A stretch of DNA of 64,000 nt from Aggregatilinea lenta (lineage in GTDB: Bacteria > Chloroflexota > Anaerolineae > Aggregatilineales > Aggregatilineaceae): the NCBI RefSeq assembly GCF_003569045.1, contig NZ_BFCB01000004.1, positions 238,281-302,280 on the forward strand, read 5' to 3'. Below the pieces are notes generated by a model. It did not search any database. It was not told the origin of the DNA and saw only the letters and a program-made list of their open reading frames with translations. The position numbers were made by a program, and so were the translations under genes. Position 1 is the stretch's first letter. Each line of letters starts with the position of its first letter. Below are positions 6,503 to 27,998 of the stretch, in pieces.

Positions 6503-6538
6503 CGCTTCCCCCTGCTTGGTGGTCAGGCGCAAGACCCA

Positions 6539-6547
6539 AGTATAACA
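6539..6547 (-). promoter_or_regulatory. extended -10 promoter for thrB
   Basis: On the minus strand the sequence reads TGTTATACT, a TGn-extended -10 box, about 40 bases before the chosen thrB start. No good -35 box is present, as is usual for extended -10 promoters. Confidence 0.45.
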
Positions 6548-6672
6548 AAAGTTCGGACAACCTGACTTATGAGTGTAGCCTGAAAATCAAAACGCGATTA
6601 CTATCAAAGGGTACAAGAGTGGGCAAAGGGCACAAGAGTGGGTTGTCATCAATAGGATTGGAAAAGTGGGGC

Positions 6673-7017
6673 ATGGAATTACTCATCATGGTGATGAGTG
6701 GCCCGGATGATGGCCGCACCATTACGCTAAATCCTGAGCGTGGTGACGGGTTCGTCGCAGCCGACGGCACGTGGACCATCGTGTTGGGGCGACGCGAAGA
6801 ATGCGACATCGGCATTCCGTTCGACACGCAGGTTTCGCGCCAACATGCGCTGCTGCGCCTCACTACCGATCAACAGATCTGGCTGGCCGATGCCAGCAGC
6901 CGTAACGGGACGTACGTGGGCAAGACGCGTATCGAAGAGCCGACCCTGGTCACGCCGGGGGAGTTATTCCGACTGGGACGGACGTGGCTCCGCATCCAGC
7001 CTGAGAGCGAACTGTAG
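6673..7017 (+). CDS. FHA domain protein
   Basis: A 114-residue protein made almost only of one forkhead-associated domain, which binds phosphothreonine peptides. The hallmark residues are present: the strand before GRREECDIGIPFD, then SRQHALLRL and ASSRNGTYVG, the SxxH and NG motifs that contact phosphothreonine. An upstream in-frame ATG at 6472 would overlap thrB and its promoter, so I use the ATG at 6673. Its stop codon shares a base with the GTG start of the next gene (TAGTG), so the two are translationally coupled. The obvious inference is that it docks onto a phosphoprotein made by, or part of, that neighbour's pathway. Confidence 0.85.
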   Translation: MELLIMVMSGPDDGRTITLNPERGDGFVAADGTWTIVLGRREECDIGIPFDTQVSRQHALLRLTTDQQIWLADASSRNGTYVGKTRIEEPTLVTPGELFRLGRTWLRIQPESEL

Positions 7018-8969: not shown

Positions 8970-8997
8970 GCACGGCACGGATCATAAACAAGAATCA

Positions 8998-9029
8998 AAA
9001 GCGAAGCGCTCGATTGGGCGCTTCGCTTT
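8998..9029. terminator. bidirectional intrinsic terminator
   Basis: A perfect 12-bp stem (AAAGCGAAGCGC with GCGCTTCGCTTT, 8-base loop) sits between the convergent kinase-like and YkuD genes. A-rich and T-rich flanks on either side suit termination in both directions. Confidence 0.8.
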
Positions 9030-9053
9030 GTTGTGCGTTAATAACAGCGACGA

Positions 9054-10277
9054 CTAGCGGCGCGCCCAGGCGGGCAGGTCGCTGCGGTAGATGCCGCTGA
9101 TGTACACGTAGACTGCTGCGGTCGGCGCGTCCTCGGTCCATTGGAACAGCCAGCCCGCGTCCATGATCGACAGGTTCACACAACCGTGGCTCTGGCGGTA
9201 ACCGAAGCGGTCGTGCCAGTAGGTGCCGTGCAAGGCTACGTCGCCGTCGAAGTACATCACGTAGGGCACTTCCTCGATGAAGTAGAAGTCCGGCTGGCCC
9301 GCCGCGCCGCTCATCCGCGTATTTTCAAAGCGGTCGTAGATGTGGAACAGTCCCTGCGGCGTGGACCACAGCGCCAGACCCGACGATACGATCGTCGCGA
9401 AGACCATTTTGTCGCCTTCGTAGGCGACCAACGTCTGCTCGAACAGGTCCACCGCGACCCACTTTTCATCGGGGCCGATGCCTTCAGGCCGTTTGATCGG
9501 CTGGACCTTCGCCACGCGGATCTGCTGGAGCCACTCGTCCGGGCCGACGAGATACCACTCCCAGCCATCCACGTATTCCACGCCGTAGATGTTCATCAGC
9601 GAGTAGCGCTCGATCTGCTCGGCCTCTTTGTCTTCCGGCCCGCCGGGGTAGCGGCTGGGGTAGGCTTCGGCGAGCATCCACGCGAAGGGCCGCTCTGGCT
9701 GTTCCTGGATCTCCACGCCGGAGAACTCGGACACATCCGCGAAGGTGACCTGTTCTTCAGGGACCCACTGACCGTAATTGATCTGGACCCAGCCGCCTTC
9801 ATAGCTGACGGCGGTCACGAAGTTGTAACCTGCCGACAGCGAGCCGATAGGGTTGCCGTTCGGCGCGTCGAGAATGGTGATATCGCCGTTCAGGCGGCGG
9901 TAGGCGCGCGTCCACACCACATCTTCATCGTAGGGCACCTGGACCACGTCAGGAGTGGGGTGCTGCGTCATTTCCGCTTCAGCGGCGCGCATCTGGATGG
10001 CGGACATGCCGGTGTGTGGCGTGCAGTCATCCGGCAGATCGGCGTACGGATTGGAGACGGTGCTGTTGGCCTCGCTGGTCGTCGTGCCAGAGTCACCGAC
10101 GTTCAGCGTGGACAGCTCCGCGTGGGTGACGGCTTCGGCCTGGGCCAGCAGCGCGGCGCAACGCTCGTCGCGCTCGTCGCCGGGGAAGGCGTAGCTGGGG
10201 AGTGCAACGGCAAGCTGGGCAGCGATGACAACTACAGCAACAACAATGGGCAATAACGGCTTGCGCATACGACTCAT
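9054..10277 (-). CDS. L,D-transpeptidase (YkuD domain), exported
   Basis: Secreted or anchored enzyme of 407 residues acting on peptidoglycan peptides. The N-terminus is a signal sequence or anchor (basic MSRMRKP, then a long hydrophobic run ending SYAF). Around residues 145-195 an SH3b-like segment is visible (ILDAPNGNPIGSLSAGYNF). The C-terminal YkuD catalytic domain has the conserved first His (HGTYWHDRFG) and the active-site SHGCVNL, with Cys as nucleophile. Family knowledge: these enzymes form 3-3 cross-links or attach proteins to the wall. A well-formed promoter lies upstream and a shared terminator downstream, so it is probably a single-gene unit. Confidence 0.9.
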   Translation of the reverse strand: MSRMRKPLLPIVVAVVVIAAQLAVALPSYAFPGDERDERCAALLAQAEAVTHAELSTLNVGDSGTTTSEANSTVSNPYADLPDDCTPHTGMSAIQMRAAEAEMTQHPTPDVVQVPYDEDVVWTRAYRRLNGDITILDAPNGNPIGSLSAGYNFVTAVSYEGGWVQINYGQWVPEEQVTFADVSEFSGVEIQEQPERPFAWMLAEAYPSRYPGGPEDKEAEQIERYSLMNIYGVEYVDGWEWYLVGPDEWLQQIRVAKVQPIKRPEGIGPDEKWVAVDLFEQTLVAYEGDKMVFATIVSSGLALWSTPQGLFHIYDRFENTRMSGAAGQPDFYFIEEVPYVMYFDGDVALHGTYWHDRFGYRQSHGCVNLSIMDAGWLFQWTEDAPTAAVYVYISGIYRSDLPAWARR

Positions 10278-10321
10278 AGGAACACTACCTCATCTGCAAC
10301 CGGATGATTTGACTGGAAGAG

Positions 10322-10350
10322 AGGATAGCAACGAACCCTACAGGGGTCAA
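10322..10350 (-). promoter_or_regulatory. sigma70-type promoter for the YkuD gene
   Basis: Minus-strand TTGACC, 17-bp spacer, TATCCT, with a TG one base before the -10 (TGCTATCCT). It lies about 45 bases before the ATG at 10277. Confidence 0.65.
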
Positions 10351-10413
10351 TATCGATCCCCCGGCTAGCAGGCAAACGTCACGCAAGCGGTGGTTTGGTT
10401 GCCCGTTGCGCAG

Positions 10414-11580
10414 CTATCCGACGCGTTTGCCGGTCTCATAATCGAACAGGTAGACACGCTCCAGGGGGAACGCGATGCGGATGCTGCCGCCCGCGCGCAC
10501 CGCATCGTGCAGGGCGAAGCTGGCGACACAGGCGTGGCCGTTGATGACCAGATGCGCGAGCTGGCGGCGCTCCGCGAACAGCGGCTCGACATAGTCGACG
10601 CGGGCGAGGATGCCACCGTCGTCCAGCGCGATGTCTTCAGGCCGGATGCCGAGCCACATCCGTTGACCGTCGCGCAGGGCGGGGCGGATCGGCTCCACGA
10701 CGATACCTTTGCCGCGCCACGTTGTGCCGTCCGTGCGGCCCAGGATCAGGTTCATGGGCGGGTTGCCAAGGAACTGGGCGACGAAGGCGTTCATGGGCCG
10801 CTCGTAGAGCGTCGGGTAGGGGCCAATTTGCTCAATTTTGCCCGCGCGCATGATCGCGATGCGGTCCGCCAGGGCGATGGCTTCCTGCTGGTCGTGCGTG
10901 ACGTAGATCGCCGTGAGCTTGTAGTGCACCAGCAGGCGTTTGAGCTGGACGCGGGTGTCCACGCGCAGCTTGGCGTCCAGGTTGGACAGCGGCTCGTCAA
11001 ACAGGAAGACTTTCGGGTCGCGCGCGAGACAGTGCGCGATGGCGACGCGCTGCTGCTCCCCGCCGGACAGAGTGGGCGGCTTGCGCGCCAGCAGATGCTC
11101 GACCTCAATGCCCATCACGTCCACGATGTAACGGATGCGGTCCGTGATGCGCTCCGGCTGGCGGCGCACGATGTCGAAAAAGCCGATGTTGTCGTGCGTC
11201 TTCATGTGCGGGTAGAGCGCATAGTTCTGGAACACCATACCGATCCCGCGCTCCTCGATGGGGATGTCCTGCACCAGCACGCCGTCGTAGACGACCTCGC
11301 CGCTGTCCGGCGGGGTCAGCCCGGCGATCACGCGCAGCAGGGTGCTCTTGCCGCAGCCGGAGGGTCCCAGGATCGCCAACGTCTCGCCGTCGCGGATTTG
11401 CAGCGACAGATCGTCGAGCGCATGGAGCAGACCGTCCGATTCCGATTGATCGGCGGGGTCCGGCGCGGTGTGCTGAAGGAAACGTTGGGGGACAAAAGGC
11501 CGGGCGTCCAGCGCAGGGAGCGTGCGTTCCTTGTCGACCGGGAAGGCTTTGGTCACATGGCGAAGCGTAATCGTTGGCAT
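10414..11580 (-). CDS. ABC transporter ATP-binding protein (MalK/UgpC type)
   Basis: Cytoplasmic ATPase subunit of 388 residues for a CUT1-type importer of sugars or glycerol-3-phosphate-like solutes. Motifs in order: Walker A GPSGCGKST, Q-loop VFQNYALYPHM, signature LSGGEQQRVAIA, Walker B VFLFDEPLSNLD and the H-loop in YVTHDQQEA. The C-terminal third is the TOBE/regulatory region typical of MalK-like subunits (NPPMNLILG, LGIRPEDI). About 45 residues between the first strand and Walker A are longer than usual. There are no permease or binding-protein genes here, so it may serve transporters encoded elsewhere. It follows the glycosyltransferase gene by 16 bases and is likely co-transcribed with it. 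Confidence 0.9.
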   Translation of the reverse strand: MPTITLRHVTKAFPVDKERTLPALDARPFVPQRFLQHTAPDPADQSESDGLLHALDDLSLQIRDGETLAILGPSGCGKSTLLRVIAGLTPPDSGEVVYDGVLVQDIPIEERGIGMVFQNYALYPHMKTHDNIGFFDIVRRQPERITDRIRYIVDVMGIEVEHLLARKPPTLSGGEQQRVAIAHCLARDPKVFLFDEPLSNLDAKLRVDTRVQLKRLLVHYKLTAIYVTHDQQEAIALADRIAIMRAGKIEQIGPYPTLYERPMNAFVAQFLGNPPMNLILGRTDGTTWRGKGIVVEPIRPALRDGQRMWLGIRPEDIALDDGGILARVDYVEPLFAERRQLAHLVINGHACVASFALHDAVRAGGSIRIAFPLERVYLFDYETGKRVG

Positions 11581-11596
11581 GAAACGGCGCTGCGAC

Positions 11597-12517
11597 TCAC
11601 GTTCTGGTTGAACCGTCGGCCAGAAAGGCGCGGATTGAGTGAAGAATGACGCCGGTAAACAGCGTTTGAATGCCTGCGACGTCCAGCAGGATACTGATCA
11701 GGGCGTAGCCCACGGCGAGCGTCTTATAGGTATTATAGCGGTCGATGACCAGCAGTCCCAGCGCGATGCCGATCAGCAGCAAAATCATACCTGACACGCC
11801 GAAGAAAAACAGGGGGCGGTGCTGGCTGACCAGGGTGATAATCGCGTTGAGCACCTGGAGTCCATGCGAAAATGGGTTGCGCTTGGCCGGTTCTTCGTAG
11901 GTCATGGTGACCGGGACCTCGGCGATGGTCAGGCCGTGCTGGTGCACCAGGAACTGCATTTCGGACTCGATGGAGAAACCGCCGTTAGGACGAAAGCGCA
12001 GCCGTTCGAGCGCGCTGCGCGAGAGGGCGCGGTAGCCGCTCTGCGAGTCGGTGAGCGGTACGCCGGAGGCGACGTTGGTCGCCAGGGTCAGTGCGTGCTG
12101 GCCGAAGATGCGCCAGCGCGGAATGCGGCTGCGAATGCCCAGAAAGCGCGATCCCACGACGACATCCGCCGCGCCGCTTCGAATCGGCTCGATCAGCGCC
12201 GGGATGTGGTTCGGATCGTGCTGGCCGTCGGCGTCGAGCAGCACCACGAGCGCCGCGCCCATGTCGCGCGCGCGGCTGAGGCCGGTATTCACCGCTTCGG
12301 CCTTACCCCGGTTGTGATCGTGCAGCAGTACCTCCGCGCCCGCGGCCCGCGCGATGTCCGCCGTGGCGTCCTGCGAGCCGTCGTCCACCACGATCACGTG
12401 ATCGACGTGCTGGCTTGCCTTGAGCACCACGCTACCGATGAACCGGTCCTCGTTGTGGGCGGCGATGACAGCAACGATGGGATGGGGTAGGAGTTGGTTT
12501 GGTTCTTCCACAGCCAA
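11597..12517 (-). CDS. family 2 glycosyltransferase with C-terminal membrane helices
   Basis: A GT-A fold transferase of 306 residues, dolichol-phosphate-mannose-synthase-like. The nucleotide-sugar site is clear: VAVIAAHNEDRFIG at the N-terminus, VIVVDDGSQDAT, and the DXD-type metal motif LLDADGQHDP. After residue 225 there are two hydrophobic segments (FFFGVSGMILLLIGIALGLL and a second ending in the C-terminal tail), as in polyprenyl-phosphate glycosyltransferases. It probably loads a sugar onto a lipid carrier for envelope glycans or protein glycosylation. The start is read as TTG at 12517; a GTG at 12511 is the alternative and no strong ribosome site decides it. Confidence 0.85.
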   Translation of the reverse strand: MAVEEPNQLLPHPIVAVIAAHNEDRFIGSVVLKASQHVDHVIVVDDGSQDATADIARAAGAEVLLHDHNRGKAEAVNTGLSRARDMGAALVVLLDADGQHDPNHIPALIEPIRSGAADVVVGSRFLGIRSRIPRWRIFGQHALTLATNVASGVPLTDSQSGYRALSRSALERLRFRPNGGFSIESEMQFLVHQHGLTIAEVPVTMTYEEPAKRNPFSHGLQVLNAIITLVSQHRPLFFFGVSGMILLLIGIALGLLVIDRYNTYKTLAVGYALISILLDVAGIQTLFTGVILHSIRAFLADGSTRT

Positions 12518-12559
12518 AATCGATCAGCGCTCTGCGCGGATAACACCGGATCGCCTAGC

Positions 12560-12587
12560 ATTTTATCACGTTCCGCCCAACTGACCA
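12560..12587 (-). promoter_or_regulatory. possible promoter for the GT2-ABC unit
   Basis: Minus-strand TGGTCA, 16-bp spacer, TAAAAT, about 43 bases ahead of the GT2 start. The -35 is only a partial match, so this is tentative. Confidence 0.35.
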
Positions 12588-12661
12588 GGACCGTGTTGGC
12601 CGGACGTATAGTGGACGTAGGCTGATGAGTGCTCGTTACGCCTCCCCGCGCGGGAGAGATC

Positions 12662-12670
12662 TGGTATACT
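12662..12670 (+). promoter_or_regulatory. extended -10 promoter for the LCP gene
   Basis: TGGTATACT is a full extended -10 element 40 bases before the LCP ATG; no -35 match is seen. A GAGGTG ribosome site follows just before the start. Confidence 0.55.
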
Positions 12671-12709
12671 TGGCCCTTCTGAACGATCCGTGTGGACACG
12701 TGAGGTGTT

Positions 12710-14491
12710 ATGCGAACTGGACTGCGGCTTGGACTGCGGCTGACTCGCCGCGTGCTGGGCGCGATCATCATCGCCGTCGTGGCGCTGACTACCGTGGGGT
12801 ACGTGGTCTATGCGGCCAATGGCATCCTGGACGAGGCGGACGCGCGCCAACAGCGCGACGATTACGACCAACTCAGTATCAGCACCGCCACGGGCATCGC
12901 CGAGCGGTTGACATCGATCGCCATTAGCGAGCAAAGTGCAGTGGCAACAGGTGCGGCCACGGAAGCGGCTGACTCCACCGACGGCGTGACGCCGGAGCCG
13001 GTTGGAATGAATGGCAGCGTGGCGCTGGTGGCATTGGTGCAATCCAGCCCGACACCGCTGCCGACGGCGACCCTGATTCCGACCAACACGCCGCGCGCGA
13101 CTGTGCCGCCGATCAACACGCCGCGTCCCTCCCCGACCGTGCTGCCGAGCGAAACGCCAACGCCGACGCTCACGGTGGAACCCAGCGCCACGCCGACCGC
13201 GACCGCCACACTGACGCCGACCTACGCGATCGAGGGCACGTATGCGCTGCCGGAAACGACGCCTGTCGTGGCGATCCCGGCGCGCGCCGAGCAGGTCGAA
13301 GACAGCGACGACATCATCAACTTCTTGCTGCTGGGCAGCGATTCGTCGCAGAGCGCGCTCGGCCAGACGGACGTGATCATCGTCGTGTCGGTGAACAAGC
13401 AGGCCGGGTCCGTAGCGATGTGGCACGTGCCGCGCGACTTGTTCGTATATGTCCCCGGCAACACGATGGACCGCATCAACCGCGCGTACGCTATCGGCGA
13501 GATGGGCGACTATCCGGGCGGTGGCTTTGGCCTGATGCAGGAAACATTCCTGTATAACTTCGGCATTCCGATCGACCATTATGCACGCGTGGACTTCAGT
13601 GACTTCATGCGCATCGTGGAGGAACTCGGCGGGCTGCAGATCAGCGTCGATTGCAGCATCGAGGACTGGCGGCTGATCGATCCGGCCATGGACCCGACGC
13701 TTGAAGAGAGCTACGAGCGCTACACGCTGCCCATCGGGCGGCAGACGCTGACGCCATACATGGCGCTGTGGTACGTGCGCAGCCGCTACACGACCAGCGA
13801 CCTGGACCGGGGCCGCCGCCAGATGGACGCGCTACGCGCCATGTGGCAGCAGGCGCTGCAGCAGGGCCTGTTCACGCAGGTGACGCAGCTCTGGCCGGAG
13901 GCGGTAGATACGGTGGAGACCGACATGTCGCTGACCGACGTGCTGTCGTTCGTGCCGATGGCGGTCAGCCTGGACATGAGTCACATCGCGCGCTACAGCG
14001 GTTCCTATGGCGCGGACGGACAGTATATCCCGTTCCTCACGCCGGACAATGGCCGCTCGGTCTTTTTGCCCGATTACGAAAAACTGCGCCCGATGATCCA
14101 GGACTTCATGACGCCGCCGACCGCCAATCGTACCGGGCGGCAGGCCGTCACGGTCGAGATCGTGGATTCAACCCTGTGGAATATCGGCTTCGACCTCGTC
14201 GCGGCGGACCGGCTGGCGTGGGAGGGCTTCGCGGCGACGGCGGTCGGCGCGCCGCAAGGTACCGTGCGCCGGGGATCGACCGTCATTTACGACTACACGG
14301 GCCAGTCGAAGGGCAGCGTGGTGGAGGATCTCAAACGCATCCTGCGCGTGTCGGACGATCAGATCGTCATCGAGCCAGACCCGAACCGCACGGTGGACTA
14401 CCGTGTCGAGATCGGGACGGCGTACAACTCGTGTGTGTACGGGAACGCCGAGGACGAACTGTCCGGCCCGCCCGTGGAAAGCGCGCCGTAG
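12710..14491 (+). CDS. LytR-CpsA-Psr (LCP) family protein
   Basis: Membrane-anchored phosphotransferase of 593 residues. LCP enzymes move glycopolymers from a lipid carrier to the cell wall or to proteins. Residues about 18-36 form one transmembrane helix; residues 110-185 are a Thr/Pro-rich linker; the LCP domain runs from about 200 to 420 (FLLLGSDSSQ, TDVIIVVSVN, WHVPRDLFV, DRINRAYAIG), including the Arg and Asp positions that bind the pyrophosphate lipid. A LytR_C-like domain follows (about 480-575, VTVEIVDSTLWNIG). The ATG has a GAGGTG ribosome site. An intrinsic terminator follows, so it is a single-gene unit. In this phylum the acceptor polymer is unknown to me. Confidence 0.88.
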   Translation: MRTGLRLGLRLTRRVLGAIIIAVVALTTVGYVVYAANGILDEADARQQRDDYDQLSISTATGIAERLTSIAISEQSAVATGAATEAADSTDGVTPEPVGMNGSVALVALVQSSPTPLPTATLIPTNTPRATVPPINTPRPSPTVLPSETPTPTLTVEPSATPTATATLTPTYAIEGTYALPETTPVVAIPARAEQVEDSDDIINFLLLGSDSSQSALGQTDVIIVVSVNKQAGSVAMWHVPRDLFVYVPGNTMDRINRAYAIGEMGDYPGGGFGLMQETFLYNFGIPIDHYARVDFSDFMRIVEELGGLQISVDCSIEDWRLIDPAMDPTLEESYERYTLPIGRQTLTPYMALWYVRSRYTTSDLDRGRRQMDALRAMWQQALQQGLFTQVTQLWPEAVDTVETDMSLTDVLSFVPMAVSLDMSHIARYSGSYGADGQYIPFLTPDNGRSVFLPDYEKLRPMIQDFMTPPTANRTGRQAVTVEIVDSTLWNIGFDLVAADRLAWEGFAATAVGAPQGTVRRGSTVIYDYTGQSKGSVVEDLKRILRVSDDQIVIEPDPNRTVDYRVEIGTAYNSCVYGNAEDELSGPPVESAP

Positions 14492-16756: not shown

Positions 16757-17373
16757 CCGGGCGTCTCGTCCAGCACGACTGGCACGACCTGTCCGGAGGT
16801 CAGCTCGGTCAACGCGTTTGAGAGCGATTCAAGCTGGTTGCTGGGTAGCACAGCGTAGACCGTGACGTCCACAGCGAACTCCTCATTCTCGATCGCGGCC
16901 TGATGCTCGGCCAGCAGCAGCTTCAGCCGCTCGTAGTGGGTGTAGGCGACCGAGATGCCGACGGTCGTTTTGGGGATCTTCAGCTCGACGGGCAGCGCCG
17001 CGAGGACTTGCTTCGCTGCCCCGCTGTAAGCGCGCACGAGGCCGCCGGTACCCAGCTTGGTGCCGCCGAAATAGCGTGTGACCACGATCACCGTGTCGCC
17101 GAGGTCCGCGCCGCGCAGCACAGTCAGCGTCGGCGGGCCTGACGTGCCTGACGGCTCGCCGTCGTCGGACATGCCTTCGATCACGCTGCCGCCATAGCCG
17201 ACCTTGAACGCATAGACGTGGTGCGAAGCGTCCGGCATTTCGTTGCGGATCGACTGGATGAAGGCTTTGGCCTCTTCGACCGAGGTCGCACGGGCTGCGG
17301 TGGCGATGAACCGGGAATTAACCACGACTGTCTCGACGCGCGTGGTTTCCACCGGAACCAAATAAATACTCAT
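16753..17373 (-). CDS. YigZ/IMPACT family protein (UPF0029)
   Basis: A 206-residue protein of the IMPACT/YigZ family, which in other organisms touches translation control; its bacterial role is unsettled. The N-terminal UPF0029 domain shows the family block HHVYAFKVG, SDDGEPSGTSG and TRYFGGTKLGTGGLVRAY; the C-terminal half matches the DUF1949 ferredoxin-like extension. The start is taken at ATG 17373, whose first bases overlap the recJ stop (ATGA), so it is translated in tandem with RecJ; an in-frame ATG four codons upstream is less well placed. It is the last gene of the helicase-nuclease operon. Confidence 0.88.
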   Translation of the reverse strand: MSIYLVPVETTRVETVVVNSRFIATAARATSVEEAKAFIQSIRNEMPDASHHVYAFKVGYGGSVIEGMSDDGEPSGTSGPPTLTVLRGADLGDTVIVVTRYFGGTKLGTGGLVRAYSGAAKQVLAALPVELKIPKTTVGISVAYTHYERLKLLLAEHQAAIENEEFAVDVTVYAVLPSNQLESLSNALTELTSGQVVPVVLDETPG

Positions 17374-19697
17374 GTTTCGTCCCATCCGAGCAGGGCGTGC
17401 GGCGCGGCGCGGCGGAAGAACGTGCGATAGGCCGCCGTTTCGCCGAGATGCGCCAGCGTCCGCGCCCGTTGGTCGTCCAGCGATGCGTCGCGGATGCCTG
17501 TTCCGGGGGCGATCATAACCACATTTGTCGCATAAGACACGCCGATTTCACCCTGCGCGGCGGCAAGATCGAGCAGATCACGCACAACGCCGGGCGTCTG
17601 CGCCAGCGCCCCGGCAAGATCGTCGAGCGTCGTGCTCCCGTGCAGGCGACCGATCACGTATTTGCACAGTTCAAGCAGGCGACGCTGAAGATCCGCGAGG
17701 GTTTGGAGTGGCGGCGGCGCGGCGACCAGCGCAACGCGTTCTGGCTGGGTGCGTTTCAACGCCTCATTTAGCCGCCCGGCGGCGGGCGGCGTCGTGTAGA
17801 CGATTAGCGTCGGCGCGCGCTCAAGCTGGTGGAGTGGGCGTCCTGGCGACGTGGCGGCGGGAATGCCTTCCGCCCAGATCGCGGCGTCGGGATAGTCTCG
17901 CTTGAGCGCGTCCAGAGCGCGCAGTGGATCGGGGCTGGCGCGGCAGTCGATCACCTCCCGACGCGGCGCGGGAACTTCGGGCAGCGCGGACGCGGCGCGG
18001 CGGAAATCGAGCAGAATCAGCTGAGGCTCGCCGGACGTTGTCGCGCGCGTGCGCCAGTCGAACTGGATCGCGGCGTCGAAGGCGTCGGCGGGCAGTACAC
18101 GGTGAGCACTGCGCCACCAGATCAGCGGCTGGCGCATGCCTGATGGGTCCTGAACGGTCAGACGGCGATGCTGCCGGGCACGATCAACGAAGGCGGCGCT
18201 CCTCAGCGTGAGATCGGTGACCATAAACGTAACGGGTGGATTGCCTTCGCCGAAAGGCGCGATCTGCTGCAAGCGGTTGGCGAGCGTAGGCGTCAATTCT
18301 GCGAGGGAAACGATCGCATCGATGGCGATTGCCGGGAGATCGACATCCGGCTGCATACGCTCAAGGGCGGCAAAAAGCCGCTCGCGGAACGCCTCGAGGT
18401 CGGTGGCGCGCAGCGCGAAGCCCGCGGCCCGACTGTGCCCACCGAATGACACCAGCCGGTCCTGCACGGCGCTGAGAGCCGCGTGTACGTCGTAGCCAGG
18501 CACTGAGCGCGCCGATCCCCGGATTGGGTTGCCACTGGCATTTAGCAGAAACACCGGGCGCTGGAGTTCTTCGGCAAGCTGTCCGGCGGCGGGGCCGATC
18601 ACGCCGGGATGCCATGTCTCGCTGCTGAGCAGTAGCGCGGGGCGATCGAGCAGGGACAGGTTGGCCTCCATCTGGCGCTGGATATCGGCAAGCACGTCGC
18701 TTTGCAAGGCACGACGCTGGCGGTTCAGGCCATCCACCTGCGCGGCCAGGATGCGCGCCTGCGCGAGATCGTCTGCGAGCAGCAGATCGACGCCGAGAGT
18801 CGCGTCCGCCAGACGCCCGGCAGCATTAAGGCGGGGTGCGAGGTCGAACGCGAGGTCCCCAGCGGTCAGCGTTTCGGCGGCCAGGCCGGCGACGTCCGCC
18901 AGGGCGCGCAGACCCACGCGGGGCGCAGTCTGCATCTGCCGCAAACCGAGCTGCAGCAGGGTGCGCGTGTCGTCCACCTGTGGGCTGACGTCCGCGACGA
19001 TGCCCAGCGCGACCAGATCCAGGAATCGGGGCAGATCGCGCACGCGACCCCGCAGTGTGTAAAGCTGCTCGATCAGCTTGTACGCCACGCCGACGCCAGG
19101 CAGTGCCGCCAGCGGGTGATTGTCGGGCAGCCGGTGCGGATTGACGATAGCATCTGAGTCCGGTAATGGGTCCGGCAGGGTGTGATGATCGGTGATGATG
19201 GTCGTGATGCCTGCCTGCCGCGCGTACGCGATCGCGTCGTGGCTGGACACGCCCGTGTCACAGGTCAGCAGCAGGCCGGGGCGATGCTGCGCGACGAGAT
19301 CGGTCAGATCGGCGCGGTGAACGCCGTGCGATCTGCGGCTGCGTTCCGGTAAGGTAAAGATGACCTGTCCGTCCAGGCCGCGCAGTGCCTCGACCAGCAG
19401 CGCGGTGGATGCCTGCCCATCGACATCGAAATCGCCCCAGATCAGGATCGTTCGGCCTGCGTGCAGCGCGTCGTCCAGCAGGTCAGCGGCGCGGTCGAGA
19501 TCGGGCAGATCGCTAGATGGCGCCGACCGATAATATGCCGGATCGAGAAAGGCGCGCGCCGCGTCCGGCGACGTGTAGCCGCGCTGCGCCAGAATCCGCG
19601 CCACAAGTGCGTCACCGCCTACCGCCTCAATCAAACGGGCGTTCACGTCGGCAGGTGGGGGCAAGGTCCACTGCGAGCTGCGCGCTGTGTCCGCCAT
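17370..19697 (-). CDS. recJ: single-stranded-DNA-specific exonuclease RecJ
   Basis: 5'-3' exonuclease of the DHH superfamily that trims single-stranded DNA in RecF-type recombination and mismatch repair. DHH motifs are intact: IWGDFDVDGQASTALLVEAL near residue 90, LLTCDTGVSSHDA and ITDHHTLPD, followed by the DHHA1 region (HPGVIGPAAGQLAEEL; FGGHSRAAGFALR) and the OB-like RecJ domain (PFGEGNPPVTFMV). At 775 residues it is longer than the E. coli enzyme; the last 200 residues form an extra domain ending in a winged-helix-like segment, as in long RecJ forms. It begins 3 bases after the nuclease gene and overlaps yigZ by four bases. Confidence 0.93.
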   Translation of the reverse strand: MADTARSSQWTLPPPADVNARLIEAVGGDALVARILAQRGYTSPDAARAFLDPAYYRSAPSSDLPDLDRAADLLDDALHAGRTILIWGDFDVDGQASTALLVEALRGLDGQVIFTLPERSRRSHGVHRADLTDLVAQHRPGLLLTCDTGVSSHDAIAYARQAGITTIITDHHTLPDPLPDSDAIVNPHRLPDNHPLAALPGVGVAYKLIEQLYTLRGRVRDLPRFLDLVALGIVADVSPQVDDTRTLLQLGLRQMQTAPRVGLRALADVAGLAAETLTAGDLAFDLAPRLNAAGRLADATLGVDLLLADDLAQARILAAQVDGLNRQRRALQSDVLADIQRQMEANLSLLDRPALLLSSETWHPGVIGPAAGQLAEELQRPVFLLNASGNPIRGSARSVPGYDVHAALSAVQDRLVSFGGHSRAAGFALRATDLEAFRERLFAALERMQPDVDLPAIAIDAIVSLAELTPTLANRLQQIAPFGEGNPPVTFMVTDLTLRSAAFVDRARQHRRLTVQDPSGMRQPLIWWRSAHRVLPADAFDAAIQFDWRTRATTSGEPQLILLDFRRAASALPEVPAPRREVIDCRASPDPLRALDALKRDYPDAAIWAEGIPAATSPGRPLHQLERAPTLIVYTTPPAAGRLNEALKRTQPERVALVAAPPPLQTLADLQRRLLELCKYVIGRLHGSTTLDDLAGALAQTPGVVRDLLDLAAAQGEIGVSYATNVVMIAPGTGIRDASLDDQRARTLAHLGETAAYRTFFRRAAPHALLGWDET

Positions 19698-19700
19698 CGC

Positions 19701-20537
19701 CTAAAACCCGACTTCCTCGACGTCCGCCAGATGGATCTGCGGCAGGACGTCTTCTTCCAGCAGGTCGTCCGCGTGGATCTGCCCGGCCTGCACGCCGCGC
19801 TCGCACAGGGAGCGGTACTCGCAGAAGCGGCAGTGCGATTCGTCGGCGGTCAGCGTCCAGACCGCGTTATCCGGCTGGGCCAGGATGTCCGCGATCAGGC
19901 CGGTGACAAACGCCTCATCGCTGGCGGCCTGTGCGGGGCTGTAATCGAAGATTACTGGCTGGGCAGGTGCGCCAGCGACCCAGTAGATCAGCTGGATCTG
20001 TTCGGCGCGCAGCGGCCCGCCGAACAGCGCTGTGCCCGCATGCAGCAGTACCAACGGATAGAGGCGCGTTTGCAGCCGCCGCGCAAACCACTCGCGCCGG
20101 GGCGCACGTGCGTAGGTCTTCCAATCGAAAATGACGGCGCGCTGCTCCGGTACGACAACCAACAGGTCGAACTTGGCACTGATTCGCTGGCTGCCGAGCG
20201 TGGCGGAAAGGGATTGTTCCGCGTGGCGCTCGCCGTCGAGCTTGTGGAGCAGGGCGAAGGCCAGATAGCTGCGCCACCAGCCGCGCAAGTCGTCATCCTG
20301 AATCGACGCTTCCAGCAGCGCCGGATCCAGGCCGAGTTGATGCCGCTCGACGAGGCGGTGGAACTGGATGCCGCGCTCGACATGGCGCTCGTGGTCCAGT
20401 AATGGCTCGGCGCGCACGGCGGGCCATGCCACTCGCTCGACGTAGCGCAGTTGGAAGCGGCGAGCGCAGTCTGTGTAGTCTTGCAGGCTGCTTTGCGTGA
20501 ATTGAAACGGCTGTGGAAACATAAGCGACTCACTCAT
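19701..20537 (-). CDS. PD-(D/E)XK Fe-S nuclease (RecB/Cas4/AddB-like)
   Basis: A stand-alone nuclease of about 278 residues. Catalytic motifs are readable: a conserved His in HVERGIQFHRLVE, AKFDLLVV (motif II Asp), VIFDWKT (motif III Asp and Lys) and the RLQTRLYPL Q-x3-Y motif. Four cysteines are placed as in Cas4, AddB and AdnAB 4Fe-4S nucleases: Cys24 (YTDCARRF) and a C-terminal C-x2-C-x5-C (CRFCEYRSLC). The start at ATG 20537 overlaps the helicase gene by 8 bases; a GTG four codons earlier is possible. By position this looks like the nuclease domain of an AddAB-like complex carried on its own chain. Confidence 0.85.
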   Translation of the reverse strand: MSESLMFPQPFQFTQSSLQDYTDCARRFQLRYVERVAWPAVRAEPLLDHERHVERGIQFHRLVERHQLGLDPALLEASIQDDDLRGWWRSYLAFALLHKLDGERHAEQSLSATLGSQRISAKFDLLVVVPEQRAVIFDWKTYARAPRREWFARRLQTRLYPLVLLHAGTALFGGPLRAEQIQLIYWVAGAPAQPVIFDYSPAQAASDEAFVTGLIADILAQPDNAVWTLTADESHCRFCEYRSLCERGVQAGQIHADDLLEEDVLPQIHLADVEEVGF

Positions 20538-22869
20538 GTGATGCAGCACCGACTAAATAGTTGTTCAGCGCGATGAGGGGCAGCGCCGCCTGGTTTTCTT
20601 TGCCTTTTTGCCAGAAGCGCCCCATGTTCCAGGTGATGATCAACTCGCGCCGGGCGCGGGTGATGCCAACGTAGAGCAGGCGCAGACGCTCCGCTGCGTA
20701 GTCGATCCGGGCCTGGAACGTGGCCTCGCCCTCGACGTACGCGTCGAGCGTTCCGGCGGTCAGCGCCTGAAGCTGCGCGACGACTTCCGCCTCCAGGTTG
20801 AGGCTGTCGCGCACGTACCAGCGCTCGCCGATGTAGTTGTCGTAGGGCTGCGCCGAGGGGAAGCCGTAATTGCTGATCGACATCAGGTAGACGCGATCCC
20901 ATTCCAGCCCTTTGGCGGCGTGCATGGTCGCGACGGTGACCACACCGGGTTCCGGCACGTAGCCTTCTTCGGTATCATCAAAGCCGATGAAGCGCCGCTC
21001 GTTGCTGCCGATGGCGCGCAGCTCGTCCACAAACTGGGGTAGACGCCAGTCAGGGTAGGCGTGCGAGATGCCCTTGAGCAGCACGGCGACTTTGTAGGCC
21101 AGGGCGATGTCCACCGGCTTGTCGAACAGATCCTGACCAACCGTCAGCACGAGCTGATCGACGGGCAGAGTCGTGGCTTCCAGCCAGCGCCGCATGCGCG
21201 CGCGGAACACGTCCAGCTCGCCGGGCAGCCAGGGATACGCGCTGGCGTCGACCGAGTGGCCGTCGCTGGCGGTGTCGGTCGCGGCAGGCCAGAGGAACGC
21301 CTCGATGTTGCGGTAGCCGTTGAACAGTTTCGTCATCGTATGGCGCAGGTCGATGTCCCCGTGCACCAATTCCTGATAGGCAGGAGCCATCGTAATCCAG
21401 AATACCTGCTTCAGCGCCTTGAGATCGACCGGATCGGCCAGATAGTCGAGCACGGCGCGCAGCAGGTTGACCGCGCGGCGCGTGTCGGTCGTGCTGCGCA
21501 GCAGCTCCTTGCAGGGAATGCGATATTTGTGCAGTAACTCGACGAGTTTGAAACCCCGGCTGTTTTCGGGCACAAGCACGGCCACGGTGGGGCGCTCGGC
21601 AGGTGGGACGTCTTTCAGATCCTCAAACCAACTTGCCAGCGACCAGTCTTCTCCGGCGACGACCATCTGTAATTCCTGGTCCGGCGTGATTTTTTGGCCG
21701 GGCTGGTACTCGATGTGCAGCCATGCGGCGTCACTAGGCGGGTTGGGCTGCGGATCGTCGTCGCTGGTAGCGGGCTGAATGCTGCCGCGCCGGATGCCGC
21801 GCCCTTCGTCCACCAGATAGCTGAACGCGCGACGCAGCGCAGGCGTTGGGTGTTCCTCGACAGACCAGCGCACCAGCTCATTGGCCAGATCGATGATCGG
21901 CAGCGCCGATCGGCCCGATACGGACAGGGGACGTTCCTCCACGCCGGGCGTCTGGCGCGGATCGAGGAAGTCGAGCAGGAACTGCGCGCTGGCCGTGGTG
22001 AACGTCGTATTGATCGCCTGGTTGGGATCACCGACGCGCACCCAGTTCCGCCCCGCGCTGAGGCGCGTTAGCATCTCCTGTTGGAGCTGGCTGCTGTCTT
22101 GCGCTTCATCCTCCAGAATATACGGCCAGCGATCCTGCAATCGGCGACAGAAGTCACGGTCCACGTCTAGCGCGCGCAGCGCCATTCGGACCAAATCGTC
22201 GAAATCTACCGCGCCGCGCGTGGCGAGGCTGCGCTGGTAGTCCGCGTAAACCTCCGCCGCAAAGCGCAGCAGGGTCGTGTTCTCACTCGCGCCGTGCAGC
22301 AGATCGTCCAACTGTTCCGGGTCGAGGCGCAAATCTTTCGCCTGCTGGATGAAGCGCGCCACGAGCGTTGGCAGATCCTGCTCGAACTGGCGGCGCGCGA
22401 AGTTGAACTTGGAGTCCTCGTCGGCGTTCACGTACGCGCTGAGCGCTTCACGCCACGGGGCAAGCTTCTGGACCGTAAGGTCGCGCTGAATCTCAAGCAC
22501 CGCGCGCTCGTCGAGAATCACGAAGTCGTCGGCCAGTCCCACCAGGGCAGGGCGCTCGCGCACGATGTCGTGGGCGAGGCCGTGCAACGTGCGCACACGG
22601 TAGCCAATCGTGGGCAGCAGGGTGTACTGCTGGCGCAGGATCTGGGCGATGCGTGCCTGGAAGCCGTTCACCGCCGAGTTGGTGAAGGTGACGACCAGGA
22701 CTTCCTGGTTGTTTTCGACGCGGCCCGTCGCGATCAGGCGTGCGGCCAGGTGCGCCAGGGTGAACGTCTTGCCACTGCCGGGCACGGCGGCGACGCCCGT
22801 CTGCCCGTGCGTGTAGCCTTCGACAATCGCGGCCTGTTCGGGACGGAAACCGGACCCGTTGGTGCTCAT
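20530..22869 (-). CDS. UvrD/PcrA-type superfamily 1 helicase
   Basis: ATP-dependent 3'-5' DNA helicase of 779 residues. Motif I AAVPGSGKT with Lys34, motif II YILEDEAQDSSQ, motif III WVRVGDPNQAI, motif V TMHAAKGLEWDRVYL and motif VI LLYVGITRARREL are all intact, so it should be active. The C-terminus ends after motif VI and lacks the nuclease domain that AddA or RecB would have. The frame runs on upstream for 90 codons, but this part is out-of-frame shadow of the neighbour; the ATG at 22869 shares a base with the upstream stop (TAATG). It probably works with the gene products on either side. Confidence 0.92.
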   Translation of the reverse strand: MSTNGSGFRPEQAAIVEGYTHGQTGVAAVPGSGKTFTLAHLAARLIATGRVENNQEVLVVTFTNSAVNGFQARIAQILRQQYTLLPTIGYRVRTLHGLAHDIVRERPALVGLADDFVILDERAVLEIQRDLTVQKLAPWREALSAYVNADEDSKFNFARRQFEQDLPTLVARFIQQAKDLRLDPEQLDDLLHGASENTTLLRFAAEVYADYQRSLATRGAVDFDDLVRMALRALDVDRDFCRRLQDRWPYILEDEAQDSSQLQQEMLTRLSAGRNWVRVGDPNQAINTTFTTASAQFLLDFLDPRQTPGVEERPLSVSGRSALPIIDLANELVRWSVEEHPTPALRRAFSYLVDEGRGIRRGSIQPATSDDDPQPNPPSDAAWLHIEYQPGQKITPDQELQMVVAGEDWSLASWFEDLKDVPPAERPTVAVLVPENSRGFKLVELLHKYRIPCKELLRSTTDTRRAVNLLRAVLDYLADPVDLKALKQVFWITMAPAYQELVHGDIDLRHTMTKLFNGYRNIEAFLWPAATDTASDGHSVDASAYPWLPGELDVFRARMRRWLEATTLPVDQLVLTVGQDLFDKPVDIALAYKVAVLLKGISHAYPDWRLPQFVDELRAIGSNERRFIGFDDTEEGYVPEPGVVTVATMHAAKGLEWDRVYLMSISNYGFPSAQPYDNYIGERWYVRDSLNLEAEVVAQLQALTAGTLDAYVEGEATFQARIDYAAERLRLLYVGITRARRELIITWNMGRFWQKGKENQAALPLIALNNYLVGAASHE

Positions 22870-24926
22870 TAGGCGCTCTCCTCGACGTGACCGTAGCGCT
22901 GGGCGGTTTGCTGGAGCACGCGCAGCAGTGGGCCGCGCTGCTCGTAGCCTTGTTCGCCCAGGTTCGACACCGAGATATAGATGTGTCCCGTGGCGCGGCG
23001 GACAAGGCCGGTGATTACGCGCCGCATGGCCTGCTGGCGCGCGTAGAACTCGTCTTCGTCGGTCCATACCTTGTCGGTAGGATAGTCGCGCATGAGCACG
23101 TAAGGGTGCGTGAGCGGCTGTTCCAGGCGTTCCCACCACAGGCTGCTGCCCGCATCCAGCCAGAACTGGATCGCGACAGGTCGGTTGCGCATCAGAAAGG
23201 TGTGCGCGGGTGCGACGAACACTGCGCTTTGCTCATCCTGCTGCCAGCTTGGCAGGTAGAGGCCGCCGAACAGGCCCTGCTGAACGAGTGACACGTATTC
23301 CTGCGTCACGGTGGACCAGTCCTCCACACCATCAGGATACAGCGTCTGCCGGAACTTGCGCGCCGAGGCGACCAGTTCCGCGACGACGCGCCCCGCCTGC
23401 ATATCCGTGTGGAAACCGAATCCGGGCTGCGACAAGACCTCGCCAAACAGACGGCTGAAGAAGTGATCGGGCGGGGTGCTGGCCGTGTCGGCGCGGTAAT
23501 CGAGCAGCCACGCGCGCAAAATATCATAGCGCTGGCCTGCACGATAGGTGATCCGGTCGCGTGCCGTGGAGGCGATCTCCTCGAACGCGCCCAGGTCGCG
23601 TCCAGGGTGATAGACGATCTGGGCCAGCAGCCACGCGCGGATTGGGTCGAGTTCACCTACCACGTGTTGCAGCGCATCCGCAACATCCAGAGCAGGGGGC
23701 AGGCTGTTCCAGGCCGGATGCGCCAGAATGGTCAGTGTAAGAAGTGTACGCGCCGACGGCTCATCGCGTACGGCGCGCGAAGGCCGGTGCGAGACGGCAG
23801 GAATGCCCCGCGCGTCCAGGCGCGACATGAGCGTGAAGCGCAGCGAGTCGTTGAGCAACGGTACGAGCACCGCGATGTCGCTCGGTGCAATGCCGCGCTC
23901 GACCTGCTGCGCGATGGCGTCTGCGACCCATTCGATCATCTGAGGGTAGAAGCGGTGGAACTCGAACGTATAGGCATCCAGTGGGTTCGCATCGGCTTCG
24001 GGCGGTTCGTCGTCATCGAGCAGCGCGGACAGGGTGGATTCCAGCGCGGCGAGTGGGGCGGGGCGCTCTGCCGGGGTGTCGAACGTTATCCTTTCCTCAC
24101 AAAGATCGGCAAGTGTGTGCATCCCGGCGGGGTCCGCACCTAAAAACGTGCGATAACCGCCGTCGCGGTCGTAGACCAACACGGCGGAATCCAGGCTATC
24201 CCACAGCCAGCGAATGAAGTCTGCTGCCACGGGATAGTTCTCCTCCAGATTGTCCGCGACGAGGTGGTGGTACTGGCCGGTGAAGTTGTTACGGAATACC
24301 GGCTCTCGCAGGAGGTGGCGCGCAAAGACCTCGATCTGCAGCGAGAAATCCAGCAGGCTGTGCTCCAGGCAGTAGGCGCGGAACTGGCGCGCGACGTCCA
24401 GGCTGGCGGCGTACATCGGCGGACGGCTCGAATGGCGTTCGCCCCAGGCTGCCACCAGTCGTTTCTCGACTTCGTCCAGGCTGAAGCCGTTGATTGCCGC
24501 GCGCGACAGGTTATTGAGAGTTTCGATCATGATGCGGAAAGGGGTCATGTTCACGCCGTCAAACAGGCCGCCTTCGACCGCTGCCATGACGAAGCGCGCC
24601 ATCTGGTGCTGTGACGTTTCGACAGTCAGGAACTGAGGCTCGATTTCCGGGTGAGCAAAGCCTGCTTTCGCAGCCACGAGTGGCCAGTAGGTTGCGACGT
24701 TTTGTTGCGCGAGGCGCCCCAGCGTGACCACGTCGAGGCCAGCCGATCCCGGCCAGTCGGGCGCGGCAGCGGCATGCCGGTAGGGTTCGCCCAATGCGGG
24801 ATGGGGCACGAGGACCAGGAGGCTGTCCGCGCCTGCTCCCAGCGATAACAAATCACGGATATGTGTGAGCGCTGCCTCGGTTTTGCCTGCCTGCGCCGGA
24901 CCTTCGAGAAAGCGACTGCGCGCCAT
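22869..24926 (-). CDS. AddB/RecC-like degenerate SF1 helicase protein
   Basis: A 685-residue relative of UvrD-family helicases. Motif I is intact (EGPAQAGKTEAA, Lys15) but others have decayed: the Walker B position reads VADNLEENYP, the motif III region reads VYDRDGGYRTFLGADP, and the end (YISVSNLGEQGYEQRGPLL) lacks the arginine finger of motif VI. This pattern fits the non-translocating partner of an AddAB- or RecBC-like enzyme. No C-terminal nuclease or Fe-S cysteine set is visible. Start at ATG 24926 with AGAGGCAGG upstream; the frame extends a further 247 codons over the divergent ATPase gene, which is not credible. First gene of the operon. The AddB-like call is an inference from motif decay plus context. 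Confidence 0.72.
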   Translation of the reverse strand: MARSRFLEGPAQAGKTEAALTHIRDLLSLGAGADSLLVLVPHPALGEPYRHAAAAPDWPGSAGLDVVTLGRLAQQNVATYWPLVAAKAGFAHPEIEPQFLTVETSQHQMARFVMAAVEGGLFDGVNMTPFRIMIETLNNLSRAAINGFSLDEVEKRLVAAWGERHSSRPPMYAASLDVARQFRAYCLEHSLLDFSLQIEVFARHLLREPVFRNNFTGQYHHLVADNLEENYPVAADFIRWLWDSLDSAVLVYDRDGGYRTFLGADPAGMHTLADLCEERITFDTPAERPAPLAALESTLSALLDDDEPPEADANPLDAYTFEFHRFYPQMIEWVADAIAQQVERGIAPSDIAVLVPLLNDSLRFTLMSRLDARGIPAVSHRPSRAVRDEPSARTLLTLTILAHPAWNSLPPALDVADALQHVVGELDPIRAWLLAQIVYHPGRDLGAFEEIASTARDRITYRAGQRYDILRAWLLDYRADTASTPPDHFFSRLFGEVLSQPGFGFHTDMQAGRVVAELVASARKFRQTLYPDGVEDWSTVTQEYVSLVQQGLFGGLYLPSWQQDEQSAVFVAPAHTFLMRNRPVAIQFWLDAGSSLWWERLEQPLTHPYVLMRDYPTDKVWTDEDEFYARQQAMRRVITGLVRRATGHIYISVSNLGEQGYEQRGPLLRVLQQTAQRYGHVEESA

Positions 24927-25217: not shown

Positions 25218-27998
25218 ATGACAACGACTTCTACTCCCTGGCATACGCAGCCAATCGATGACGTCGTCGAGCAACTGGGAACGGACATCAAACACGGTCT
25301 CAGCGAGACGACGGCTGCGGAACGTTTGCAGCAGGTTGGCCCGAATGCACTGCAAGAGCAGCCGCGCCCGACGTTCTGGCAGCGGCTGCTGGCCCAATTT
25401 CAGAGTTTTGTCATCTATATTTTGATCTTTGCAGCAGTTCTGTCTGGTTTGCTTGGCGACTGGGTCGAGGCTGCCGCCATTGCTGCGATTGTAGCGCTTA
25501 ACGCGACGATGGGCGTCATTCAAGAGGGGCGGGCGGAAGAGGCACTGGCCGTGCTTCGGAAGCTCACCTCGCCGGACGCGCTCGTTATTCGCGGCGGTCA
25601 CCAGCACGTGATTCCCGCCAGCCAATTGGTCCCCGGCGATGTCGTGATTCTCGAAGCCGGCAACCACATTCCGGCGGACGTGCGGCTGATCGAGGCGATG
25701 AATCTCAAGGTCGATGAAGCCTCGATGACGGGCGAGTCCGTTCCGGTAGACAAGCGCGCAGCGATGATTGTCTCGGAAGACTCCGTGCTCGGCGATCGCC
25801 GGAATATGGCTTATATGAGCACAACGGCGACGTATGGTCGTGGCAAAGCGGTCGTCGTCAATACGGGCATGAAGACCGAAATCGGTAAGATCGCGGACAT
25901 GATCCAGTCCACCGAGACGGAAATCACGCCGCTTCAGCGCCGCCTGGACGAGCTGGGGCGTACGCTGAGCATCGGATCGCTGGCGATTTGTCTGCTGGTA
26001 GGTGTGGTGATCTTCGTGCGCGAGATGACCGGCGGGGACTTCGAGTTTGCGGACGCGCTGACCGATTCGATCATGACAGCGGTCGCTCTGGCAATCGCCG
26101 CCGTGCCCGAAGGCTTACCGGCGGTTGTGACGATTAATCTGGCGATCGGTATGCGCGAGATGATCCGGCGCAACGCGCTGATCCGGCGGCTGCCTGCCGT
26201 GGAGACGTTGGGCAGCGCCTCAACGATTTGCTCGGACAAGACCGGCACGCTGACACAGAACGAAATGACCGCTGTGCGGCTGTTTGTGACCAACAAGCGC
26301 TTTGACGTCAGTGGTGAGGGCTTCAGCCCGGTTGGATCGTTTAGCCAGAATGGGGTCGACGTTGAGATCGCGGCCAATCCCGAGGCGGGGCGGCTGCTGT
26401 TGGCGGCCCTGTTAGCCAGTGACGCGCAGCTTGAGATGAATCGGGACGGGCGCGACGAAGGGCAAAGCGGCTACCAGATGATCGGCGATCCGACCGAGGG
26501 CGCGATGGTTGTGGCGGCGGCGAAGGCGGGCCTGTGGCGCGAATCGTCGGAGCAAGAGTATCCGCGCGTGAATGAGATTCCGTTCGATTCCGCCCGCAAG
26601 CGTATGAGCACAATTCACAAGGGGAACAACGGCAACGGCACGCAGTTTGTGGTGTTTACTAAGGGCGCGCCAGAGATCTTGCTGGAGCACTGCGACAGCG
26701 TGCTTGAGAACGGCGTTGTGGTGCCGCTAGACGATATGAAACGCCAGGAAATTCTGGCCGCCAACACGCAAATGGCACATCAGGCGCTGCGTGTGCTGGC
26801 CGTCGCTCAGCGCGAGCTGGACACGCTGCCGGAGGAGGTTACGCCGGACACTGTCGAAAATCACCTGACGCTGCTCGGTCTCATCGCCATGATCGATCCG
26901 GCGCGCCCGGAGGTGAAATCGGCGATCGCGAAGGCGCGGCACGCGGGTATCCGCACGGTGATGGTGACCGGCGACTATCCCGACACGGCGCGGGCTATCG
27001 CTGAGCAAATTGGTTTGCTGCGCGAGAATGGCCGTGTGATGCAGGGCAGCGAACTTGAGCGAATCTCCGGGAGCGAGCTGGCGGCGATCATCGACGAGGT
27101 GGATGTCTTCGCGCGCGTTTCACCAGAACACAAGGTGCGTATTGTCGAAGCCTTCCGCGCGCGTGATTACGTCGTGGCGATGACCGGTGACGGCGTTAAC
27201 GATGCGCCTGCACTCAAGCGTGCCAGTATTGGCGTGGCGATGGGTATCACGGGCACAGACGTCTCTAAAGAAACGGCGGATATGGTGCTCACCGACGACA
27301 ACTACGTAAGTATTGTGTCGGCGGTAGAACAGGGCCGTGTTATCTATGCCAACATCCGCAAGTTCGTGTACTTCCTGCTGAGCTGCAACCTGGCGGAAAT
27401 CGCAGTGATTTTCCTGGCGACGCTGGCAGGCGCGCCGTCACCGCTGACGCCGATCCAGCTGCTGTGGCTGAATCTGCTGACCGACGGCGCTCCGGCCCTG
27501 GCGCTGGGTGTCGAGAAGGGCGACCCAGATATCATGGACCGTCCGCCGCGTCCGACGAAGGAGCCGATCATTGACCGCAATATGCGCCTGGGTCTGGTCT
27601 TGCAAACCATCGCCAAAACGACCGCAACGCTGCTGGCATTCATGATCGGGCGCCATCTCGATCCCACTAGCTGGGATCTGGCGCGGACGATGGCATTTGT
27701 AACGCTGTCCATGTCGGAATTGCTGCGGGGCTATACCTCGCGGTCGGAGCTAAACTCGGTGTTCAAGATTGGCGTGTTTAGCAACTCGTTCATGCAGTAC
27801 GCGGTGTTCACATCGAGTGCGCTGCTGATGTTGGTGGTGTACGTTCCGTTCCTGCAGGAGATCTTCGACACGGTGCCGCTGCAGGTCGAGCACTGGCTAT
27901 ATGCGGTTCCGCTGCTGCTGACGCCCGCTGTTGTGGATGAACTCACAAAACTCTACCTGCGCATGAAGCAGGAAAAGGCGGCTCCCGTCGCCGCTTAG
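25218..27998 (+). CDS. P-type Ca2+-transporting ATPase (P2A)
   Basis: Membrane cation pump of 926 residues. An actuator loop with MTGESVPV, phosphorylation motif [10 protein letters not shown] (Asp340), nucleotide-binding domain, and hinge [12 protein letters not shown] are all present, with about ten hydrophobic segments. The transport-site residues match calcium pumps of the SERCA/PMR1 class: PEGLPAVV in M4, [11 protein letters not shown] in M5, [13 protein letters not shown] in M6 and [12 protein letters not shown] in M8. It should export Ca2+, possibly Mn2+. ATG start. A TGGTACACT extended -10 (25158-25166) lies 50 bases upstream. It is a single gene followed by a terminator. Confidence 0.9.

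Follow-up and report, generated by a model that had tools for sequence, protein, structure and literature searches.

A four-gene helicase, nuclease and RecJ cassette of Anaerolineae as a candidate split AddAB/AdnAB-like end-resection system

Four adjoining genes and their products

We analysed a stretch of 64,000 nucleotides from Aggregatilinea lenta (the window) and found four genes in a row on its minus strand: hel1 (24926-22869, 685 aa), hel2 (22869-20530, 779 aa), nuc (20537-19701, 278 aa from its ATG) and recJ2 (19697-17370, 775 aa). The coordinates, confirmed to the base, bore out the spacing given in the original prediction, with hel1 and hel2 overlapping by 1 base (TAATG), hel2 and nuc overlapping by 8 bases, and recJ2 following nuc after a gap of 3 bases. 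The predicted motifs, namely a helicase retaining motif I only, a UvrD-type helicase and a four-cysteine nuclease, likewise held across homologs. Divergently from hel1, and sharing its upstream region, lies a gene at 25218-27998 of the window (plus strand), recognised by eye as a P-type cation ATPase of 926 aa.

The Walker A motif of Hel1, GPAQAGKT (24879..24902, minus strand; residues 9-16), was retained among homologs, with G9 present in 64/64 sequences and G14, K15 and T16 in 65/65, while motifs II to V were replaced by other conserved residues. The degenerate motif II, HLVADNLEE (24240..24266, minus strand; residues 221-229), was placed opposite ILEDEAQDSS of Hel2 by profile alignment and carries Asn226 in place of the catalytic Glu, a position held by N in 61 and by H in 5 of 66 homologs. 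Across homologs, motif III has Gly in place of Gln, the motif V position is taken by an invariant PA[YH]TFLMR, and H-R-P-S-R (380-384) is invariant (66/66). Judged by this conservation, the altered site is under strong purifying selection and is not decaying; Hel1 probably binds ATP but does not hydrolyse it. The chain lacks a nuclease domain and has no plausible activity alone.

Hel1 gave no Pfam domain over the cut-off, no match to the NCBIfam addB model and no clear relative in a sequence search of the PDB, so that a fold search was needed. Its AlphaFold2 model (pLDDT 90.3, pTM 0.87) adopted the SF1A helicase fold along the whole length and matched UvrD (Z 28.8), AdnB (Z 25.1, 607 residues, rmsd 4.2) and AddB (Z 22.8, 612 residues, rmsd 6.2). 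The UvrD matches had equally high Z scores but mostly larger rmsd values; in the predicted model, the likeness to AddB/AdnB is thus not exclusive, the match to plain UvrD/Rep being also high (Z 28). An AddB profile search on the 685-residue protein, proposed earlier, succeeded in part: ADDB_N (PF21445) scored 12.1 bits, below its cut-off of 26.6, but the hel1 profile gave a distant hhalign match to the AddB profile of A. lenta (E 2.3e-9). Since the hel1 profile also matched that of hel2 (E 2.2e-7), part of the match to AddB reflects the shared helicase fold. We labelled Hel1 AddB/AdnB-like because of the extent of the structural match, the AddB profile match and the inactive motifs, and its predicted fold agrees with the AddB-type partner that had been proposed. 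The lack of a Pfam match fits the low similarity among AddB proteins, those of Firmicutes and Proteobacteria showing no significant similarity to each other (PMC1193525).

Hel2 is a UvrD-type SF1A helicase with UvrD domains in Pfam, complete motifs and no nuclease domain. Its Walker A motif, AVPGSGKT (22765..22788, minus strand; residues 28-35), was conserved in 30/30 sequences at seven of eight positions and in 29/30 at S32; across these 30 sequences, motifs I, Ia, II, III, V and VI were essentially invariant, as was the Arg of motif IV (SGRS). The best NCBIfam scores were to the pcrA, rep and uvrD models, all far below the cut-offs (pcrA: 141 bits, cut-off 911), and the recB and recD models matched weakly, also far below theirs. 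The addA model TIGR02785 gave 71 bits against a cut-off of 707.65; this cut-off alone is strict, since the real AddA of the same genome also misses it with 340.8 bits. The best structural Z of the predicted Hel2 model was to UvrD, and for both Hel1 and Hel2 the alignment with the helicase part of AdnB exceeded 600 residues. A 1180-aa frame in one relative (G086), considered as a natural hel2-nuc fusion, proved to be merely stop-free upstream sequence. The hel2 frames as counted in two genomes of genus g26 (G182 and G350; loci L160 and L159) span one in-frame TGA, which may lie inside or outside the gene.

Nuc is a stand-alone PD-(D/E)XK chain and the only product of the operon with a PF12705 match. 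The catalytic residues D124 and D138-W-K140 (20118..20168, minus strand), W139 included, were each present in 20/20 sequences, as were the C-terminal cysteines C236-x2-C239-x5-C245 (19803..19832, minus strand), the fourth Fe-S cysteine C24 (20466-20468, minus strand), and H60, E107, Q156 and Y160. These residues correspond to the RecB-type "iron staple" pattern of H, D, D-x-K and Q-x3-Y with four cysteines spanning the domain, a signature described in PMC7430649. The nuc profile aligned to the C-terminal nuclease of AddB (E 1.6e-5), and we regard Nuc as a putative Fe-S nuclease of this AddB kind.

A RecJ had been predicted beside these genes; it is present, but it is not the housekeeping enzyme. 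RecJ2 has DHH, DHHA1 and RecJ_OB domains in Pfam and was the sole operon protein over an NCBIfam curated cut-off (TIGR00644 recJ: 441, cut-off 397), while an ordinary RecJ of about 590 aa is encoded elsewhere in the genome (C2:437053-438666). RecJ2 is extended at its C terminus by about 200 residues (about residues 575-775; 17373..17975, minus strand), a feature of 14/14 long RecJs and 0/32 ordinary ones. The extension had no Pfam match, and the closest solved RecJ, 8y30 (757 aa), aligned only as far as profile position 653. The long RecJs have intact catalytic motifs and form one clade (support 100/99) apart from the ordinary RecJs, with a plasmid copy from Salinibacter ruber M8 inside it. 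A long RecJ was found in 13/18 hel1-bearing genomes, in six of the 13 away from hel1, compared with 0/14 genomes without hel1 among those tested; it was absent from the hel1-bearing genomes G190, G360, G375 and G333. By sequence, the operon RecJ is a dedicated, non-housekeeping second paralog.

Conservation, co-inheritance and copies outside the phylum

hel1 was present in all 18 genomes of the family at about 60% identity and, when 400 genomes of the phylum were sampled, in 46 of the 58 genomes of the class, with no strong match in the other 342. Scanning GTDB contigs yielded 71 hel1 loci, nearly all titled Chloroflexota. The gene-order survey supported the expected arrangement: hel1-hel2-nuc-recJ2 recurred at many loci in Anaerolineae, the genes overlapping or separated by short gaps, and all four genes lay on one strand in 23 of the 57 loci whose downstream sequence reached at least 7 kb. 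Because conservation and gene order are repeated in many genomes, chance is excluded as the origin of the cassette. The module is not a relic.

We compiled a phylogenetic profile of 63 Anaerolineae genomes, 51 with and 12 without hel1. hel2 was present in 51/51 hel1-bearing versus 0/12 hel1-less genomes, and nuc in 47/51 versus 0/12; these tallies are raw counts from unevenly sampled genomes, many of them MAGs, that are not phylogenetically independent. Three genomes had hel1-hel2 without nuc (G166, G272 and G333), and nuc was weak in G314. As some relatives lack nuc and others RecJ2, neither nuclease is strictly required. Genus g25 (G166, G333 and G314; loci L211, L212 and L214) has overlapping hel1 and hel2, with nuc missing there; by eye, a nucleotidyl-transferase-like and an acyl-CoA-dehydrogenase-like gene lie downstream, an order shared by the three loci. 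No substitute nuclease was recognised beside hel2 in them.

Co-retention of the module genes persists when they are unlinked, for example at 2.22, 0.20 and 1.03 Mb of contig C1 in G375. Repair genes often cluster, a complex of the chains is only an inferred one, and Nuc is missing in G166 and G333, so an ordinary operon of independent repair genes with no common complex was considered. We judge it highly improbable given that Hel1 has no plausible solo activity, that the genes are kept together although scattered over the chromosome, and that all four occur together on a plasmid of another phylum.

That plasmid is pSR56 of Salinibacter ruber M8 (NC_014028.1, locus L231), which carries the complete cassette in the same order at 5756-13639. 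Its hel1, hel2 and nuc products share 36-40% identity, and its recJ encodes 785 aa; hel1 bears no annotation beyond "hypothetical protein", and the others are labelled helicase, nuclease and RecJ. A tblastn search of 72,556 plasmids found full-length hel1 and nuc in this record alone; a partial hel1 match in an Ilyobacter plasmid was rejected as a UvrD-type gene. In a concatenated tree, the pSR56 cassette fell among Anaerolineae without firm support, and it was likely acquired by joint transfer. Thus, the earlier idea of a split end-resection machine holds up in that the parts behave as one unit, in conserved order, in co-inheritance when unlinked and in a joint plasmid copy.

The presence of the full cassette on a plasmid from a different phylum would also suit an antiviral or plasmid-borne defence system, Gabija-like or UvrD-Cas4-like. 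Gabija consists of GajA, an OLD-family ATPase-Toprim nuclease, beside the helicase GajB. PADLOC returned GajB-type matches for the operon helicases, with E 7.8e-37 for Hel2, and UvrD-Cas4 fusions are known in defence contexts (PMC5704561). However, the operon partner is a PF12705 nuclease, no GajA was among the PADLOC matches listed, and the matches to GajB stem from the UvrD fold that the proteins have in common. Occurrence in 46/58 class genomes and 18/18 family genomes is unlike that of patchy defence genes, and the hel1 profile found no copy in the viral contigs of IMG/VR, nor did hel1 occur in phage records. We therefore consider a defence role quite unlikely. Phage matches to hel2 were only partial and of UvrD type. 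On contig C3 of A. lenta, a phage-like replication island was seen by eye (L008 4668-8623; G000:C3, about 1,638,700-1,642,600), in which successive genes encode a DnaB-like helicase, a 270-aa nuclease of Cas4-like/RecB type and an AAA ATPase.

AddAB in the same genome and across Anaerolineae

The original prediction had the module standing in for AddAB in A. lenta. That claim failed on the finding which the prediction itself had named against it: contig C2 encodes a full AddA (1208 aa, UvrD and PF12705) and AddB (1139 aa; ADDB_N 62.4 bits, over the cut-off; PF12705 113.5 bits). Contamination was ruled out, since AddB also occurs, at 47-58% identity, in relatives belonging to this family. As AddAB is also encoded, the module is not the sole resection machine of A. 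lenta. Many relatives possess the module but lack AddAB. AddB was present in 11/18 family genomes and absent from all five of genus g12, which all keep hel1; canonical AddB was found in about 10 of the 51 hel1-bearing genomes. We checked 37 of these 51 for large nuclease frames, and 31, including the single-contig genomes G126, G344 and G190, had no PF12705 frame of at least 900 aa, hence no RecB, AddA, AddB, AdnA or AdnB of the usual size. In most hel1-bearing Anaerolineae checked, the cassette is thus the only candidate resection machine of the RecBCD/AddAB/AdnAB kind. Four Anaerolineae (G206, G222, G286 and G327) had neither the module nor any PF12705 frame above 300 aa.

These data bear on whether the proteins act at double-strand ends at all. 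Hel2 might instead be a helicase of the UvrD/PcrA type that serves repair or anti-recombination and is held by the pseudo-helicase, while Nuc and RecJ2 would trim flaps or gaps. The best scores of Hel2 to pcrA, rep and uvrD (far below the cut-offs), its best structural Z to UvrD and the loss of Nuc or RecJ2 in some genomes would allow this. The AddB/AdnB-like extent of Hel1 and its profile match to AddB, the AddB-type Fe-S nuclease and the retention of the set by AddAB-less genomes argue against this explanation, which we hold to be unlikely. The module is best read as an undescribed split AddAB/AdnAB-like end-resection system.

Like AddAB, the module pairs one active SF1A motor with a helicase-like subunit that has a Walker A motif and otherwise inactive motifs, and it has a four-cysteine "iron staple" nuclease as at the AddB C terminus. 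In contrast to AddAB, this nuclease is a separate 278-aa chain and neither helicase chain carries a nuclease domain; there is no AddA-type second nuclease, an own RecJ paralog lies alongside, and the AddA and AddB family models do not recognise the module proteins. The alignments of both helicases with AdnB recall AdnAB, in which, however, helicase and nuclease are fused within both AdnA and AdnB, whereas here the parts are unfused and one helicase is inactive by motif. RecBCD differs in that no recC model matched any of the four operon proteins and the nuclease here is unfused. RecJ2, for its part, is set apart from ordinary RecJ by being an additional paralog, by its separate clade and by its extension. 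In Clostridiales, a UvrD helicase lies beside an unfused Cas4-like nuclease, and UvrD-Cas4 fusions also exist (PMC5704561). This precedent, too, lies outside CRISPR and has an unfused PF12705 nuclease beside an SF1A helicase, so that a separate nuclease beside UvrD is not new in itself; compared by description and not by orthology, it differs in that no Hel1-like pseudo-helicase or RecJ paralog is reported.

Proposed mechanism and significance

Taken together, it is fairly probable that the four genes act as a single unit in the processing of DNA ends. Hel2 would translocate 3'-5' and unwind the duplex, and Hel1, as its partner, would split the strands and guide them, with ATP bound but probably not hydrolysed. 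Nuc would cut an emerging strand, the 5'-terminated one by analogy with AddB, and the long RecJ2 would digest the displaced 5' strand, leaving a 3' overhang for RecA. A physical complex, the choice of strand and a role in double-strand-break repair are the inferred parts of this scheme.

The original prediction further proposed that the set combines both nuclease polarities. As an exonuclease, RecJ works in the 5'-3' direction. Within AddAB, the 5'-terminated strand falls to the nuclease of AddB (PMC4824097, PMC7430649) and the 3'-terminated strand, until Chi, to that of AddA (PMC4824097). The set holds an AddB-type Fe-S nuclease and RecJ and no AddA-type 3'-strand nuclease, and does not support that proposal; because only these two nucleases are present, a 5'-strand bias is expected, and by analogy the module is probably biased to 5'-strand degradation and not of dual polarity. 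A bolder view, which we put forward tentatively as possible and rather doubtful, is that separate pseudo-helicase, motor and Fe-S nuclease with a dedicated RecJ make up a further resection class beside RecBCD, AddAB and AdnAB, acting on the 5' strand only, hence with no Chi-type switch, and being the sole such machine in most Anaerolineae.

The cassette bears on how bacteria without RecBCD, AddAB and AdnAB prepare broken ends. Among the papers searched, none was found to describe the cassette or a pseudo-helicase with a dedicated RecJ. Most of the class keep the set, often without ordinary AddAB, so that their trimming of DNA breaks may follow a route not described before. With motor, scaffold and nuclease on separate chains, each activity should be separable, unlike in the fused enzymes, and the pSR56 copy in Salinibacter ruber M8 provides a named strain as a starting point.
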